Assembly: GCA_017626055.1 (NCBI GenBank)
Contig: JAGAJM010000027.1
Location: 62,001 to 126,000 of the forward strand
DNA: 64,000 bases
Reading direction: 5' to 3'
Source: a bacterium
GTDB taxonomy: Bacteria; Cyanobacteriota; Vampirovibrionia; Gastranaerophilales; Gastranaerophilaceae
Positions within the stretch are counted from its first letter, which is position 1, and each line of letters starts with the position of its first letter. Shown here one piece after another: positions 25,034 through 51,437 of the stretch. Below the pieces are notes generated by a model that had not been told where the DNA came from, made no database searches, and was given only the letters and a program-made list of their open reading frames with translations. Made by a program: the position numbers and the translations under genes.

Positions 25034-25345
25034 CTACTCGTTAAATATAATAATATCGTGAATAATTTCGTTATAAGTTGTATCGACTATAACATCAAAT
25101 GGAGGATTATCCTCTTTTGTTGAATCAGCACGTTCAAAAGTATCCTCTTTATCTTTCAATCTATCAATATCCAAAGTATCTGGAGTACAAGCATTTGTTC
25201 CAGAGATTATTGACATTGCCAACAACATAGCAGGCACGGATAAGTTAGATTTTGGATTATGATGAATATGCTCATTTCTATTGTTCTTTGCAGTGAATTT
25301 AGGATAACTTATATAATTATTTGAATTAACTGATAAAACTCTCAT
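25034..25345 (-). CDS. Unknown 103-residue protein with N-terminal FTA motif
   Basis: Starts at an ATG with agagg upstream and a strong TATAAT -10 (25369-25374). Residues 10-19 include YPKFTAKNN, an example of the short Phe-x-Gly/Ala motif seen near the N-terminus of several neighbours. Residues about 36-54 form one hydrophobic stretch ending in Asn-Ala-Cys, which resembles a lipoprotein signal but sits behind an unusually long polar N-terminus. The C-terminal half is acidic (Asp/Glu-rich). I do not recognise the family. Confidence 0.65.
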   Translation of the reverse strand: MRVLSVNSNNYISYPKFTAKNNRNEHIHHNPKSNLSVPAMLLAMSIISGTNACTPDTLDIDRLKDKEDTFERADSTKEDNPPFDVIVDTTYNEIIHDIIIFNE

Positions 25346-25465
25346 TTTTTAACCTCTTTTGCAAGTTAATTATACCACACAAGAATTTGAATTAATAGTT
25401 TGTTACAAAAGTAATAAATTTAGCACATTTTTACATTGAGTTGGTTTATAGCAAATGGTAGTGTG

Positions 25466-26416
25466 ATGAATAATTTAACGTTAAATAAAATCTCAATATA
25501 CAACCCTTATTTCTGTTCAAATGGACAGACTAATTTTAACGCTCAAGAAACAAGTAAATTCTGGCTAAGAGAGCAATCACAACAAACAAAAACCGATACA
25601 ATAGAAACTACCAAAACCGCAGAACAACCAAATCAAATCGTATCAGAAAAACCTTTATTCAATAATTTTGAAGCAGATACGGCAACAAATGCAGCTGGAA
25701 CCGCGGTATTTTTAAGACTTGCACAACGTGGCATTGAATGGCTTTCTGAAATATGCGCAGGAATTCTTATGAGAGGAAAAGAATTTGCATCAGAAGCTGA
25801 CGTAAAAAAAGTTGCAAATGCAATGAAGTCAGAAAAAGGCTTGCAAGCTGATATCCACTATATTGACCACAGTAATAAAGATTTCTTAAAAAGAATGTTC
25901 CCAGGACTTGCAAAAAGTTTAGATACAGTTGCAAGTGGTGGTAATGCATTCTACACACACCAAGGCAACTTTGCAGTTGCACCTAAATCAAAACCATCAC
26001 TAATTTTACACGAACTTGGACACGCAACAAATTTTGAAAAAAGCAAATTCTTCAGAGGTTTACAAAAACTAAGAGTTCTTGGTATGTACGCTCCAATGGT
26101 AATTGCATTTTTAAATGATTTTTCAGGTAAACGTAAAGACGGGAAACAAAGTTTTATTGAAAAATATGCAGGTATGATTGGTTTTTCAGCATTTTTACCA
26201 ACAATTATCGAAGAAGGTGCCGCATCATGGCGTGGAATTCAAGCTGCTAAGAAAACACTTCCAAACGTTAAATTAGGTGCATTAAAACGTAATTATTTCT
26301 TTGCTTGGATGACATATGTTCTAGCAGGCGTAGGTGTAGGATTAGCCTCAAAACTTGCAATCACAGAAGTAAAGCAACCAAAAGAAAAAAGGACAAATAA
26401 TGATTCTCAACAATAA
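25466..26416 (+). CDS. HELGH-motif membrane protein, putative zinc metalloprotease
   Basis: 316 residues from the ATG at 25466; an upstream TTG at 25436 is less likely. Near the N-terminus is NGQTNFNAQ, part of the motif shared by neighbours. The zinc-binding HELGH lies in ILHELGHATNFEK (near residue 180), and an EEGAASW segment about 65 residues later could offer the third ligand. Three hydrophobic segments flank these motifs (about 195-212, 228-245, 278-300). This layout fits a membrane-bound gluzincin-like protease; the family is not one I can name. The stop overlaps the next gene by 17 bp. Confidence 0.75.
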   Translation: MNNLTLNKISIYNPYFCSNGQTNFNAQETSKFWLREQSQQTKTDTIETTKTAEQPNQIVSEKPLFNNFEADTATNAAGTAVFLRLAQRGIEWLSEICAGILMRGKEFASEADVKKVANAMKSEKGLQADIHYIDHSNKDFLKRMFPGLAKSLDTVASGGNAFYTHQGNFAVAPKSKPSLILHELGHATNFEKSKFFRGLQKLRVLGMYAPMVIAFLNDFSGKRKDGKQSFIEKYAGMIGFSAFLPTIIEEGAASWRGIQAAKKTLPNVKLGALKRNYFFAWMTYVLAGVGVGLASKLAITEVKQPKEKRTNNDSQQ

Positions 26417-27104
26417 CACACAAAATAATACATTTACTGGCGCGTTTAGATTTAAGCCAAGCGAAATAAAAGCAAAACTAGAAGTACCTAACTTATTCAC
26501 TCAAGGAAGACAAATTGGTACTGATATCCTTGAAAAAGGTGATCAAGTAATTATCGTAAGAGATAGTTATGACAAGCGAATAGGTAATTATATCCAAGAA
26601 AATGGAGTTAAAGAGGTTGAATATTATCCAACAATCAACACAAGACTTGGACTTGATTTTGAACGTCCTGAGGAAATAATTACAGTATTAAAAGATAAAT
26701 CAACAAGAATGATAACAAATTTTGAAGAGATGTTTGAAGTTATTAGTAAGCAAAAAAGAGGTAAAAAGACCATAAAAGGACAAAATATCCCGAAAGCTCT
26801 AAGCGTTGAAAAAGAATTTGAAAGAGTTACAAAGGCGTTAAGATTAAATATTCAAAACCCTGAAATAAGAATCAAAGGTCAACATATGAGAATTTATGAT
26901 AAAAACAGAAGAAGAACCCTTGATATTGTAGCTCATAGCGGAACCTATTACACATACCTAAGGTATGACAATATGAGCGCTGAATCTATCATGCGAACAA
27001 TAAATGGTAAAGGTGAAACTATCAAAAATTTTGAAAAACCAGATGAAATTCATAAATTCTTGGCTGATTTAAGACGACTAATTAAAGAAAATGCTCAAAA
27101 ATAA
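26400..27104 (+). CDS. Unknown basic protein with N-terminal FTGAF motif
   Basis: 234 residues. The N-terminus reads NNTFTGAFRFK (about 9-19), an example of the Phe-Thr-Gly motif shared by neighbours. The rest alternates beta-strand-like segments (IIVRDSYDKRIGNYIQ) with a basic central region (KQKRGKKTIKG, about 121-131) and ends with an amphipathic helix. It begins inside the 3' end of the HELGH gene (17-bp overlap), so the two proteins are probably made together and may interact. No family recognised. Confidence 0.75.
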   Translation: MILNNNTQNNTFTGAFRFKPSEIKAKLEVPNLFTQGRQIGTDILEKGDQVIIVRDSYDKRIGNYIQENGVKEVEYYPTINTRLGLDFERPEEIITVLKDKSTRMITNFEEMFEVISKQKRGKKTIKGQNIPKALSVEKEFERVTKALRLNIQNPEIRIKGQHMRIYDKNRRRTLDIVAHSGTYYTYLRYDNMSAESIMRTINGKGETIKNFEKPDEIHKFLADLRRLIKENAQK

Positions 27105-27115
27105 TAAGAGCTTAT

Positions 27116-27964
27116 TTATTCATCAGCCAAACCTAATTCAATTTTTAAATTTTCTTCAAAACCCCTGTTAAATCCTAGTTTCACTTTATCATCAGGGGTT
27201 AAATTATTATACATATTCTTTAATTTTGTATAAACAAATTCACTGGTTGGATAAACTTTTTTACCTTTCCAATGAGGATTAAAAAAAGTATTTAAAGCTA
27301 AAATATTTGGAGTTCTGTATTCACCAAACTCACAACCAATATAAAAACCATCTTTATTTATTGTATCAATAAGATCAATAAAGCTTTTCATAAAGATTGA
27401 ACGTTCGTACATAACTGAAAATTCATGCTTTTTCATTGCCGTATCAAATTCATTTTGAGTTAGCCCTAACTTAGATAATTCTTTTTCCTTTTCCTCTCTT
27501 AACTCACTATCAGTTCTAAAGATAGGATTAGCCCAATAATCTGCACTAACAGGATAGCGCATATAATCAATACCATTGGATTTGCAAGCAGATTCTAAGC
27601 CAAAATAACCTACCAAATCTATCACAGTATGGACATTTGATTTTCTAAGTAGTTCCAAATACTGCAAATTTTTAGCTAAAGTTGAACCTCGATATGAATT
27701 TTGCCCTATTTTTTGCAAATTAGGAATAAATACATCATCTAACGACTCAGCGTATCTATTTGAGCGGCCCACTTCTTGACCATATGCAGGTAAAAACTGA
27801 GCATACATGTGAGCTCTAATTGCATCACGAATTTTTGCGTCATGACTAAAACATTCATCATCATCTTGAGTAAAATTATGAACCTGATTATCTTCATAAA
27901 GATCATCAAGCTTGAACCCAAAACTAAAAGAGACATTATTTATTTGAGTAGGTAGAATACGCAT
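27116..27964 (-). CDS. Dual-specificity-phosphatase-like protein with N-terminal FSFGF motif
   Basis: 282 residues. The N-terminus has NNVSFSFGFKL (about 9-19). From about residue 92 the sequence follows the tyrosine/dual-specificity phosphatase layout: YRGSTLAKNLQYLELLRKS, then VHTVIDLVG, GIDYMRYPVS, and the catalytic loop GCEFGEYRT (near 212-220), which matches CxxGxxR(S/T). The usual His before the Cys is Gly here. A general-acid Asp could lie in the Asp-rich loops but I cannot place it. It is convergent with the upstream pair and would act on phosphoproteins or phosphate esters. Confidence 0.7.
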   Translation of the reverse strand: MRILPTQINNVSFSFGFKLDDLYEDNQVHNFTQDDDECFSHDAKIRDAIRAHMYAQFLPAYGQEVGRSNRYAESLDDVFIPNLQKIGQNSYRGSTLAKNLQYLELLRKSNVHTVIDLVGYFGLESACKSNGIDYMRYPVSADYWANPIFRTDSELREEKEKELSKLGLTQNEFDTAMKKHEFSVMYERSIFMKSFIDLIDTINKDGFYIGCEFGEYRTPNILALNTFFNPHWKGKKVYPTSEFVYTKLKNMYNNLTPDDKVKLGFNRGFEENLKIELGLADE

Positions 27965-43853: not shown

Positions 43854-45848
43854 TTAGAACTCATCACGAAGATCATAACGTCCACGAGTTGCTTCATACA
43901 TAGTTTCCGCAATAGTTCTTGCCCAATCATCATATCCTTCTAACAGACCTTCTTTTGCCATATTATCGATTATACGTAATTGGTTTCTAAAATTCTTTCT
44001 AACTGATAAAACTTGAGTGTACCAAGCCTCTACACTTTTATTACTTTTCAAGTTATTACATCCTTTACAAAGTCCAACTTGATTATCTTTAGATATTTTC
44101 CCACCTTTTTTTGCAGCAATTAAAAGATCACCAGTTGCAACATCAGATTTAAACATATTAAACAATAATGTAAACACTGGGTTTTTATCAGCATTCTCAT
44201 ACTTATCGTTAGGCATAATTAATGAACTGCGGTATGCAACTGTCCTCAAATCATTCAAAAGAACATAGACAGATTTCGTACACTCAGGGCTATCTAAATC
44301 AATTCCCAAAAAGACTGATCTCATTAAGTTTGAGTAATTATAATCATCAAAGTAACCAGACGAAATATAATTAGTTAGCCTATTTTGAACAAGGTTAACT
44401 AAATTAAGTTGTTCTGGAGTACCATTTTTTTCAATATACTTTACGCCATCATTAAAGTTAAATAAGGCTTGATAAACACCTTGCTGAAGCGAATCTTCCG
44501 CACGTGCAGAAAATTCTTTCAAAAATTCTTCTTGAGAGATACTTGGATTTTCATTATAAATAGTTGTAAAAATTTCCTTAAAATCTCTGGCAAAAACACC
44601 AATATATTTGTCGTTATCTTCCAAAATTTTCACATAATCCGACAAATTCTCTGCTTGAATTAATTTCAACTGAATATCAAGACGTCTTGAATGAGGTAAT
44701 AATGTTGAGCCACAACAAGCACAAGGGATATCAACTACCGATTGTTCAATAGGTGCAAACTCTTCTCTCTTAAATGAAAGCGCTCGCAAACTTAATAAGC
44801 GATCAATATCAGCTTGAGAGAACTCAATAGAACCTTTTGATAGTTTATTTACATAAAACGTGAAATTATTAAAATAATGCCTGTTAGGAATTATTTTTCC
44901 TTCTCCCATTAATTTTGCAATATTAGCTAAATATGATTGCAAAAAGAACTTAGCAACTTCTGGGCTTTCCACTGCTCGAAAGTCCATAAATACTTTCGGA
45001 TGAGCTTTTCTAACACAACTATTACATTCTAAAACTGAATTATTTGTAATTTCATGATCCATATCGTAAGAGTGAATTTTATTTTGTTTAATCAAAGAAT
45101 TAGAAAAAATCTTAGCAGCCCATAATTTAGATAATTCATTTTGGGGTAAAGTTTTAAAGTCATGAATATTGTAAACTCCAAAATTCAAGCTATTTGCACG
45201 CAAATCTTTAAACAAATTCAAGATAAGATAATCTTTTGCATCTTTATCAAAGTCCTTACGATTAACCAATGGGAAAAATACATCCTTGAATTCTTGATAA
45301 CCACCAGTAGTATCAATCACCTTAAAAACTTTATCAACACTATCTTTCAGTTCACCATCTTCTAATGTTTTTGAATAATCAAATAAAAAATTCTTAATTT
45401 CGATAAAACTATCATACCTTTTGGCAAATGCATTCTGTTTTGAATTAGCAAAATAATCAAAAATAGTTAAATTATCCTCTTTCAAAAACAAGTCAGCATT
45501 TTTAAACAAAGTATCTCTCATATGATGAGGAATATAATCAATATTATTTTTAAAAAATGTCACCAAATCTGCAGGTTCATCAATTTTAGCAGCCTCATTA
45601 ACAAGAATATTATACTTCTTTTCAGATAAGGTCTTAACACCACAAGCAGGACAAGTAACATCTCCAATTTCTAATACTGGAGATAAATCAACCGATTCAA
45701 AACGAGGAATAAAATTACTTCCAAACGAGCATTGGAAAGACCTTGGAACGTCAACTTGATAACTGTTATTTTGTACAGTTTCTTTTCGTTCTAAAACTTC
45801 ATTTTTATAAGGGATATAGCTATATGTAATCGGCAGAATTTTGACCAT
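43854..45848 (-). CDS. Unknown protein with two duplicated CxxCG...CxxC zinc modules
   Basis: 664 residues from the ATG at 45848 (a TTG at 45869 is less likely). Near the N-terminus is SFQCSFGSNF, of the same Phe-Gly type seen in other proteins here. Cys pairs occur twice in the same order: CPACG (about 67-71) with CNSC (about 275-278), then CACCG (about 377-381) with CKGC (about 590-593), each module spanning about 210 residues of mostly helical sequence. The layout suggests an internal duplication of a split HNH-like or treble-clef zinc fold. I can see no clear catalytic His-Asn-His set. Unknown function. Confidence 0.7.
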   Translation of the reverse strand: MVKILPITYSYIPYKNEVLERKETVQNNSYQVDVPRSFQCSFGSNFIPRFESVDLSPVLEIGDVTCPACGVKTLSEKKYNILVNEAAKIDEPADLVTFFKNNIDYIPHHMRDTLFKNADLFLKEDNLTIFDYFANSKQNAFAKRYDSFIEIKNFLFDYSKTLEDGELKDSVDKVFKVIDTTGGYQEFKDVFFPLVNRKDFDKDAKDYLILNLFKDLRANSLNFGVYNIHDFKTLPQNELSKLWAAKIFSNSLIKQNKIHSYDMDHEITNNSVLECNSCVRKAHPKVFMDFRAVESPEVAKFFLQSYLANIAKLMGEGKIIPNRHYFNNFTFYVNKLSKGSIEFSQADIDRLLSLRALSFKREEFAPIEQSVVDIPCACCGSTLLPHSRRLDIQLKLIQAENLSDYVKILEDNDKYIGVFARDFKEIFTTIYNENPSISQEEFLKEFSARAEDSLQQGVYQALFNFNDGVKYIEKNGTPEQLNLVNLVQNRLTNYISSGYFDDYNYSNLMRSVFLGIDLDSPECTKSVYVLLNDLRTVAYRSSLIMPNDKYENADKNPVFTLLFNMFKSDVATGDLLIAAKKGGKISKDNQVGLCKGCNNLKSNKSVEAWYTQVLSVRKNFRNQLRIIDNMAKEGLLEGYDDWARTIAETMYEATRGRYDLRDEF

Positions 45849-49190: not shown

Positions 49191-51437
49191 TTACGCACTT
49201 TGATTGAATTTGAAAGTTCTAGAAATATTTTTATCAATTACACCTTTGATTACATCATATTCAGTTTGTAATGCATTGTGTTCAGTGTCAATATTTTTCA
49301 ATTCCATATCGAAGATATTATCTTTAGCTTCGATATCGTTCATAGCTCTATTGTATTCTGCTTCAGCTTTTGCTACCGCAGCTTCATCAGTAACTTCAGT
49401 GATTTTAACACAAGTTCTGTAATCCAAACCATTCCATTTGAAGTTTTTATCAACTTGTTCAAGTGTAACGATACCAGATTCTAAAGCATATTCCATCCAT
49501 TCTTTAGATGCGCCTAAACCATTTTCTAATGCTTTAAAACCTTGGTTCATTCTATTGAATAAGTTTGTATACCATTGAGCTTTAGCATCAGCATTACCAG
49601 TGTTAGCGGTATCATTTTGATCAACCCAAGCATATTTTGGTTCACCATATACTGCGATAATTTCTTCAACTAAGAATTCTTTAATAACTGTATTGAAAGA
49701 TTCAGATTGTTTCAAGCCTTTTGCTTTTAAGAATTGAAGCACGAAATCAATATTAGTTAAGTTTTCTGGAGTTACTAAGTGATTGATAGCATTTTCGCCT
49801 TCACCAGTAGTAAATGCAATTGCTCCATCTCTCATAGCAGCTTCAACATAGTCTTTTGATGATTTATAAAGAACGCCCTCAAATTCAACTTTAGTCAAAT
49901 AATTATTAGGGTTATTAAGGTAATCAGAATCACTAGTGTCTGCATTAGGGTCTAGAATTGGTCCTTCAAAAATGTTGCTTAAGAATCTATCTTTAGCACC
50001 GAAGTAATTATTTAAAACTTTGCCTAATGTTTTACCAACACTTTTGATGATTTGTGCTGAATCGATATTAAATGAAGGATCTTCAACAATTCTTCTTGCA
50101 AAGTTTTCTCTATTTACTTTGAAAATAATTTCATTAAGTAACTCATTTGTGATTGAATTGAAGAATTCAGGCGCTTCAGCTTCTTTAACAAGCATTGTAG
50201 ATTTAACTTTATAATTACCATTTTCATCTTTATCTAAAGACATGAAACGTTCTTGGTAAGTATTAGAATCTGTTTCTTCATCATAAGTAGTTTCTTTATA
50301 TGATAATTGATTTACAAATTCTTCAAAATCGATGTTAGTTTTTATAGCACCAACAGCGTCTAATGGACCAGTCAAAGCATAAGTAGAGTTTTTAGATTCT
50401 TCATCTTCTAGAGGTACTGCTTCTGTAACTTTACCATTTGCATCTACTGTAATTTTAACTGCACCATCCAATACGTATGTTGTAGAAAGTACGTTACCAT
50501 CAGCATCAGACTGAACTTCTGAACTCATTTCAACATTTTCTGATACTAATACACCTTGGATTTTTTCACGTTTTAGGTCATCACCAATTTTAGGATTACC
50601 ATTTTCATCTAAGTAAGGGAAAGAACCATATGAAATTGAATCAACAATTTCTATCATAGAATTTTTATCAACTTCAGAAATAAATTGATCTGCGTATAAT
50701 CCATTAATATTGTATGTATTGTTATTTGTTCCGTAGAAATAATTTTTGAATGCATTAACTCTATTTTCTAAAGTATTAGGGTCAGCAACAACTGTGATAC
50801 CAAATTCACCAGAAGTAGGATCCTGAGTTACATTTGGAGTATTATTAGTTAACAAGTAGCTTAATAAAGCTTCTTCTGTTGCTTTTTCTAATTCAAGATC
50901 AGCATTAATGAACTCACCATAGTTATTTGTGTAATCTTCAACTTCTAAAGAGTTTTCGTATGAACCATATTGTTCATAGTAAGTTTTCATTTCTTCAACT
51001 GAAATATTATCGAATGGTTGTGGGTAAACTGAATTTTTAATAGCACCCAACTGATCGAAATAAGTTGTTGTATATTCTAGACCATGAGCTAATAAATAAG
51101 CATTTAAGTTACCATTTGCTTGAGTAAACATAGCTGCTTCAGATTCACTAACTAAAATTTGACCAGCTGAATTGATTAAGCCATATTGAGTGTTGTATGA
51201 GCTATAAGCTGTCAAAGCATTGTAAGTCAAATCTTGAGACATAGCATTACCAGCTTCATCATAGCTAGCGAATTTCAATGTTGCGTTATTCAACGCATTG
51301 ATATAATTCTCACTAGCTTGAGAACTTTGAGTAGCCAAACGCATTTTTGCATTATTAATGGTTTGAGATCTCAACTCATTGTCAGCTAAACGAGCTGTAA
51401 TAGTTAATAATCTAGCTTGTGATGCTGCCATTCCCAT
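49191..51437 (-). CDS. Large surface/axial-type protein of unknown family (MGMAASQARLL start)
   Basis: 748 residues with no signal peptide. The N-terminal about 55 residues (MGMAASQARLLTITARLADN onwards) and the C-terminal about 45 (IEAKDNIFDMELKNIDTEHN and following coil) are helical and Ala/Leu-rich, while the middle is long, acidic, Asn/Tyr-rich and repetitive. This head-and-tail helical plan with a variable middle resembles flagellin/hook-associated axial proteins that are exported through a flagellum-type apparatus; that is inference. A sigma-28-like promoter precedes it. The 193-residue gene at 57192 looks like a smaller protein of similar layout. Confidence 0.75.
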   Translation of the reverse strand: MGMAASQARLLTITARLADNELRSQTINNAKMRLATQSSQASENYINALNNATLKFASYDEAGNAMSQDLTYNALTAYSSYNTQYGLINSAGQILVSESEAAMFTQANGNLNAYLLAHGLEYTTTYFDQLGAIKNSVYPQPFDNISVEEMKTYYEQYGSYENSLEVEDYTNNYGEFINADLELEKATEEALLSYLLTNNTPNVTQDPTSGEFGITVVADPNTLENRVNAFKNYFYGTNNNTYNINGLYADQFISEVDKNSMIEIVDSISYGSFPYLDENGNPKIGDDLKREKIQGVLVSENVEMSSEVQSDADGNVLSTTYVLDGAVKITVDANGKVTEAVPLEDEESKNSTYALTGPLDAVGAIKTNIDFEEFVNQLSYKETTYDEETDSNTYQERFMSLDKDENGNYKVKSTMLVKEAEAPEFFNSITNELLNEIIFKVNRENFARRIVEDPSFNIDSAQIIKSVGKTLGKVLNNYFGAKDRFLSNIFEGPILDPNADTSDSDYLNNPNNYLTKVEFEGVLYKSSKDYVEAAMRDGAIAFTTGEGENAINHLVTPENLTNIDFVLQFLKAKGLKQSESFNTVIKEFLVEEIIAVYGEPKYAWVDQNDTANTGNADAKAQWYTNLFNRMNQGFKALENGLGASKEWMEYALESGIVTLEQVDKNFKWNGLDYRTCVKITEVTDEAAVAKAEAEYNRAMNDIEAKDNIFDMELKNIDTEHNALQTEYDVIKGVIDKNISRTFKFNQSA

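Follow-up and report, generated by a model that had tools for sequence, protein, structure and literature searches.

We identified a leader peptide common to Gastranaerophilales proteins with otherwise unrelated bodies, consisting of a start block (M[KRQN][IV]xx[IV]N), a polar spacer and the motif [NS]F[KTN]G. The leader is real and, in the genomes searched, specific to this order; it is probably a modular address tag at the N-terminus that would be read in the cytosol and guide its carriers to one site or export route. The original prediction had described a short N-terminal Phe-[Thr/Ser/Asn]-[Gly/Ala] motif in five proteins of the window (the 64,000-nucleotide stretch of DNA analysed, G000:C19:62001-126000, from a source genome, G000, of 1.87 Mb). 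That motif is enriched at N-termini, but its breadth (Thr/Ser/Asn, then Gly/Ala) exceeds what the genome-wide data support, and the conserved start block, which is part of the leader, went unnamed.

Leader sequences in the window

All five strings quoted for the motif are present: YPKFTAKNN (25034), TNFNAQ (25466), NNTFTGAF (26400), NNVSFSFGF (27116), and SFQCSFGSNF (43854). The 234-aa protein at 26400 carries its leader at 26400-26441 (forward strand; MILNNNTQNNT-FTG), and this is the best-supported form of the motif. The leader of the 282-aa phosphatase (27116-27964, reverse strand) lies at 27914-27964 and reads MRILPTQINNVSFSFGF, with the near form F-G-F; its homologues support this case. 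For the F-x-A of the proteins at 25034 and 25466, genome-wide support is lacking. The first, of 103 aa (25034-25345, reverse strand; leader at 25289-25345), begins with the start block MRVLSVN and reads MRVLSVNSNNYISYPK-FTA; behind this come a linker of polar residues, a hydrophobic segment and a lipobox-like SGTNAC, an architecture matching that of L018:7686 and of the L052 genes. The second is a 316-aa protein with a HELGH zinc-protease motif and no Pfam match (forward strand; ATG start at 25466, leader at 25466-25543, ...GQTN-FNA); its family has relatives in 41 of 60 family genomes, and the leader is absent from both distant homologues compared (n = 2). The possible leader of the CxxC protein (43854-45848, reverse strand; leader at 45711-45848, MVKILPI...SFQCSFGSNF) is doubtful, with acidic residues within it and the motif at residues 38-46. 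Distant relatives of this protein turn up in 28 genomes of the 60 besides its own (29 with it); the distant homologue L093:6278 starts with MKIYPLH and contains FGC.

The body of the 27116 protein is a cysteine phosphatase of the PTP/DSP fold: it has both the fold and the C-x5-R loop (GCEFGEYRT in the window copy) that define these enzymes; the Arg of the loop is lost in some family members. In a structural model built from an alignment of 11 sequences, the body is confident and residues 1-42 have pLDDT < 50; the top Foldseek matches of the model are TpbA, SsoPTP, and Siw14 (E 2e-4 to 4e-4), and a PDB sequence search with the family profile gave nothing better than E 0.02. Eight of the 11 aligned members have F-x-[GAS] in the leader, and none is found in L030 and L033.

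Enrichment at N-termini and in-frame excess across the order

For the source genome we used the window plus 400 kb (466 gene models from a simple gene caller, with approximate starts), searched residues 5-55 for [STNAPVQIL]F[KTSNQCGR][GAS], and called a start polar when the N-terminus was polar, little-acidic and non-hydrophobic. The motif is found in 28 of 106 polar-start proteins, a count reached by none of 500 composition-preserving shuffles (11.3 +/- 3.2), and in 23 of 370 interior stretches of the same proteins. Where the start is not polar, the excess is weak (26/243 proteins, a count that 22 of 500 shuffles reach). In four other genomes of the order (32-41 polar-start proteins apiece), the shuffle test, run on each singly, was not significant. 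A PSSM trained on the source genome, for which its result is circular, gave a clear held-out excess in G104 (6 of 168 N-termini vs 4 of 610 interior stretches, score 10) and no clear excess in G018 or G001.

Across the order we used a DNA pattern (ATGAARRTNNNNNNNRTNAAY, 0-30 bases, TTYAMNGG) that encodes MK[IV]xx[IV]N...F[KNT]G. It has 76 matches in 146 Gastranaerophilales genomes, compared with five for the reversed pattern, and 62 of the 76 are in frame; the binomial p of 7e-18 against an expectation of one third is optimistic, because related leaders are not independent. In random viral contigs 17 of 80 matches of the same pattern are in frame (Fisher p 1e-14 against the order), and 89 genomes outside the order have 11 matches (control 4), two of them in frame as counted from the listed strings. 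The strict pattern is matched in only 51 of the 146 order genomes. Chance is ruled out as the source of the motif by the shuffles and by the in-frame matches set against the reversed pattern. Thus the N-terminal frequency is not equal to that at random positions, the outcome named beforehand as fatal to the motif, but higher, both in the source genome and across the order. The similar starts suggested for gut Melainabacteria proteins also hold, since some related Candidatus Gastranaerophilales/Melainabacteria loci show the leader. We did not find the motif described in the literature on N-terminal motifs or secretion in Melainabacteria/Vampirovibrionia, in a search that covered few subscription papers.

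The in-frame matches comprise 58 different leaders (e.g., MKISPVNFKG, MKINAINTTNFKG, and MKISAINSTPHRTNFTG). It is very improbable that they reflect only common descent, as a 5′ module copied from gene to gene or as a few duplicated families inflating the count, with no receptor involved: several matches are orthologues (MKISAINYQT.., MKIYPVN..QKNTFKG), but the leaders are this diverse, the bodies mostly have no detectable similarity, and the motif is retained among homologues while the spacer changes. Homologues keep a form of the motif and differ in other parts of the leader in L010:4290/L052:8205, L013:9871/L050:8357, L004:730/L260:1501, and L015:14947/L189/L194.

The F-[KTN]-G form is established, and there are probably looser forms as well, namely F-x-A, F-x-S, and F-G-x-K. 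These wider forms rest on the homologues, because F-[ST/CR]-A has no in-frame excess (18 of the 55 matches left of 71, after removal of 14 FMN-reductase-like and two stop-containing ones) and F-G-[AS]-K is too rare (five matches in 146 genomes; by eye, ATGAAAATTAATCCAATC.. and ATGAAAATTTTCTCAGTA.. seem to be genuine). The F-x-A pattern is confounded by starts of the kind MKVLLINGS..GCTFTA, which we take to be FMN-reductase-like.

The start block and the motif go together. We recognised the common start by reading motif matches; in the order genomes other than G000, the motif is present in 19 of 48 start-block proteins vs 149 of 1392 others (OR 5.5, p 4e-7), and the controls (Y or L for F; another third residue; residues 80-139) are flat. 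Since the start pattern had been picked after viewing those genomes, a test fixed beforehand was run on 80 fresh FlhA loci, and it failed: 1/12 vs 42/407 after collapse to one protein per family (7/20 vs 159/1214 before), with no in-frame excess (four in frame vs three and 12). These loci are neighbourhoods of core genes, and the start pattern also picks up dehydrogenase-like and glycosyltransferase-like starts. In the reverse selection, 32 of 119 motif clusters start with M[KRQNHE][IV], compared with 6/55 for Y, 16/132 for L, 11/117 for I, and 17/119 for F-x-[DEKRL].

The signal is at the protein level. In 90 leader genes, the codons for F, the middle residue and G/A mostly match genome usage, the exceptions being Ser TCA at the third position (13/20) and Thr ACC and ACG at the middle position, which are commoner; start codons occur within five codons after the motif in 13 of 90 genes vs 19%, which is no excess. 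It is therefore hardly credible that the leader is a feature of nucleic acid or translation (an internal ribosome-binding site, a slow start or AT-rich start codons). Leader gene starts are AT-rich and TTT AAA GGA includes the Shine-Dalgarno-like AAAGGA, but the excess of the motif is in frame, and the codon usage and start-codon counts behind the motif rule out an internal start or Shine-Dalgarno effect.

Carrier proteins and modularity of the leader

The carriers are chiefly accessory proteins, and the leader stands on many unrelated bodies. A Pfam scan of 30 of the 32 source-genome carriers (L015:14947 and L019:13970 were left out) gave clear domains in three, namely two 5′-nucleotidase/metallophosphatases and one DEAD/DSHCT Ski2-like helicase; the other scanned carriers have no Pfam domain above the cut-off, and NCBIfam is uninformative for most carriers. 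Carriers in relatives include an AAA ATPase (L123:325) and a metallophosphatase (L123:1881). The Ski2/Mtr4-like DEAD-DSHCT helicase (L015:11992-14292) and its counterpart L193:17026-19362, which are 69 percent identical, each have two N-terminal motif-like segments.

The leader may be the sorting, processing or docking signal suggested originally, and we favour sorting or docking because the leader is found on only one of two tandem paralogues and in front of signal-peptide-like segments. The tandem pair, from the source genome (L021:1592-3319 and L021:3391-5265; 57 percent identical, HENAHSLGP...EENKAD), is metallopeptidase-like, has no Pfam match above the cut-off, and is presumably M49-like. 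L021:3391 has about 50 extra N-terminal residues with HIAFTG near their end, while L021:1592 and its homologues L113, L203, and L183 begin at the domain and lack the leader. The two genes form a natural test pair, without and with the leader.

The leader precedes a hydrophobic segment with an AxA|Q site in L249, L251, L252, L266, and L269, and a lipobox in L052:12487, to which the 25034 protein of the window is similar. Four of these (L249, L252, L266, and L269) form a predicted exported family, with the leader, a signal-peptide-like segment, an EF-hand-like stretch, and a His-rich C-terminus. The leader could be an extended region of the signal peptide with a role in the timing or routing of Sec export; the carriers that lack a signal peptide would then be remnants or use another exit. 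We consider this quite unlikely: the lipobox and the AxA|Q sites speak for it, as does an early hydrophobic segment in 23 of the 136 leader clusters (42 of 536 in the controls), but that count takes in some false members (e.g., L054:18053), and 104 of the 136 clusters have no hydrophobic segment anywhere. That absence, and the polar nature of the leader itself, exclude a plain Sec/SPI or lipoprotein signal peptide. Type IV prepilin signals have G|F-T-L-x-E followed directly by a hydrophobic helix; a prepilin-like site was rejected for the leader, where no L or E is fixed among the mixed residues that follow F-x-G.

The flagellar-type export apparatus

FHIPEP (FlhA/SctV) has a match in all 146 order genomes (144 with E below 1e-200). 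The apparatus is therefore present in every genome with the signal, which is necessary, and not sufficient, for the leader to mark type III substrates. Leader composition (polar, unstructured, few acidic residues) resembles that of type III signals. According to two published accounts, flagella are incomplete in most gut members, and non-flagellate members retain export genes without filament, cap, and outer rings (PMC3787301, PMC4040986). A type III route is attractive because FHIPEP is kept in all genomes while flagella are, in those accounts, mostly incomplete: the leader would be the secretion signal of the retained apparatus, and the carriers, which include phosphatases and protease-like proteins, would be non-flagellar cargo that may reach other cells. 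By eye, two leader genes of G000 (L010:2517 and L010:4290) are close to FlhB, and in G018 another (L045:17933) adjoins FliR. Yet we hold this reading to be unlikely: the leader is not enriched around FlhA (80 loci); partners of the apparatus (the FliE-like L103:3158 and the MG[MIL]AASQAR proteins) lack it; of the 17 of 38 genomes outside the order that have FHIPEP, those sampled (G146, G148, G157, and G172+G159) show no leader excess; and carriers that have Sec-like segments behind the leader, or that are an AAA ATPase or a helicase, do not resemble type III cargo.

The FHIPEP proteins of the order genomes form one class that scores about 713-736 bits and another, present in many genomes, that scores about 817-891 bits; the former may be part of a dedicated non-flagellar apparatus. 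By eye, genes similar to FliE/FliF/FliG/FliH and FliP/Q/R/FlhB are seen near FHIPEP or elsewhere, with export-gene loci at G000:C10:29699-31690, L103:3158-9136, L012:13073-15528, and L010:675-1751. A paralogous family starting with MG[MIL][AS]ASQAR[LFY]L (window 49191-51437; L012:3516; L014:17299; L099:17585; L128:8290; L086:4545) includes a protein encoded about 10 kb from FlhA in G001, and its members are possible substrates of the export apparatus.

A candidate address tag

The leader is polar, unstructured and at the extreme N-terminus, and it occurs on soluble enzymes as well as on Sec-like precursors, so one factor could read it only on the cytosolic side; on this ground we regard it as a tag for sorting or docking that is recognised on that side. 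We infer that a factor located in the cytosol, or on the cytoplasmic side of the inner membrane, would most likely recognise the leader during or soon after synthesis, and that recognised carriers would be brought to one common site or export route. ATP-using carriers (the AAA ATPase and the Ski2-like helicase) and Sec-like carriers would not share a single simple destination.

Several known systems are similar in part. Type III signals (flagellar and injectisome) are likewise N-terminal, polar, unstructured and on unrelated bodies, but they have no strict consensus, whereas the leader has a recurring start block and F-[KTN]-G, and its linkage to export genes is anecdotal. The extended signal peptide region of autotransporters and YSIRK-G/S signal peptides have conserved N-terminal stretches in front of a Sec-like signal peptide, as in part of the carriers, but differ in consensus and taxa, and a signal peptide is missing from most leader carriers. 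The encapsulation or cargo peptides of bacterial compartments are also short terminal tags that gather unrelated enzymes; unlike the leader, they form amphipathic helices or sit at the C-terminus.

Gastranaerophilales occur commonly in animal guts, and little is understood about them. An order-wide tag makes it possible to list, straight from sequence, proteins that the cell may handle in the same way, the majority of which have no known domain, and the leader offers a short peptide bait for finding its receptor. In its most far-reaching form, which we put forward tentatively and rate as fairly unlikely, the leader would be a previously undescribed bipartite N-terminal targeting code, order-wide, that directs tens of unrelated accessory proteins in each genome to a single place; in these non-motile gut cyanobacteria the way there might be a flagellar export machine that has become a general secretion device. 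A route through the retained flagellar-type apparatus would explain why non-flagellate members have kept it.
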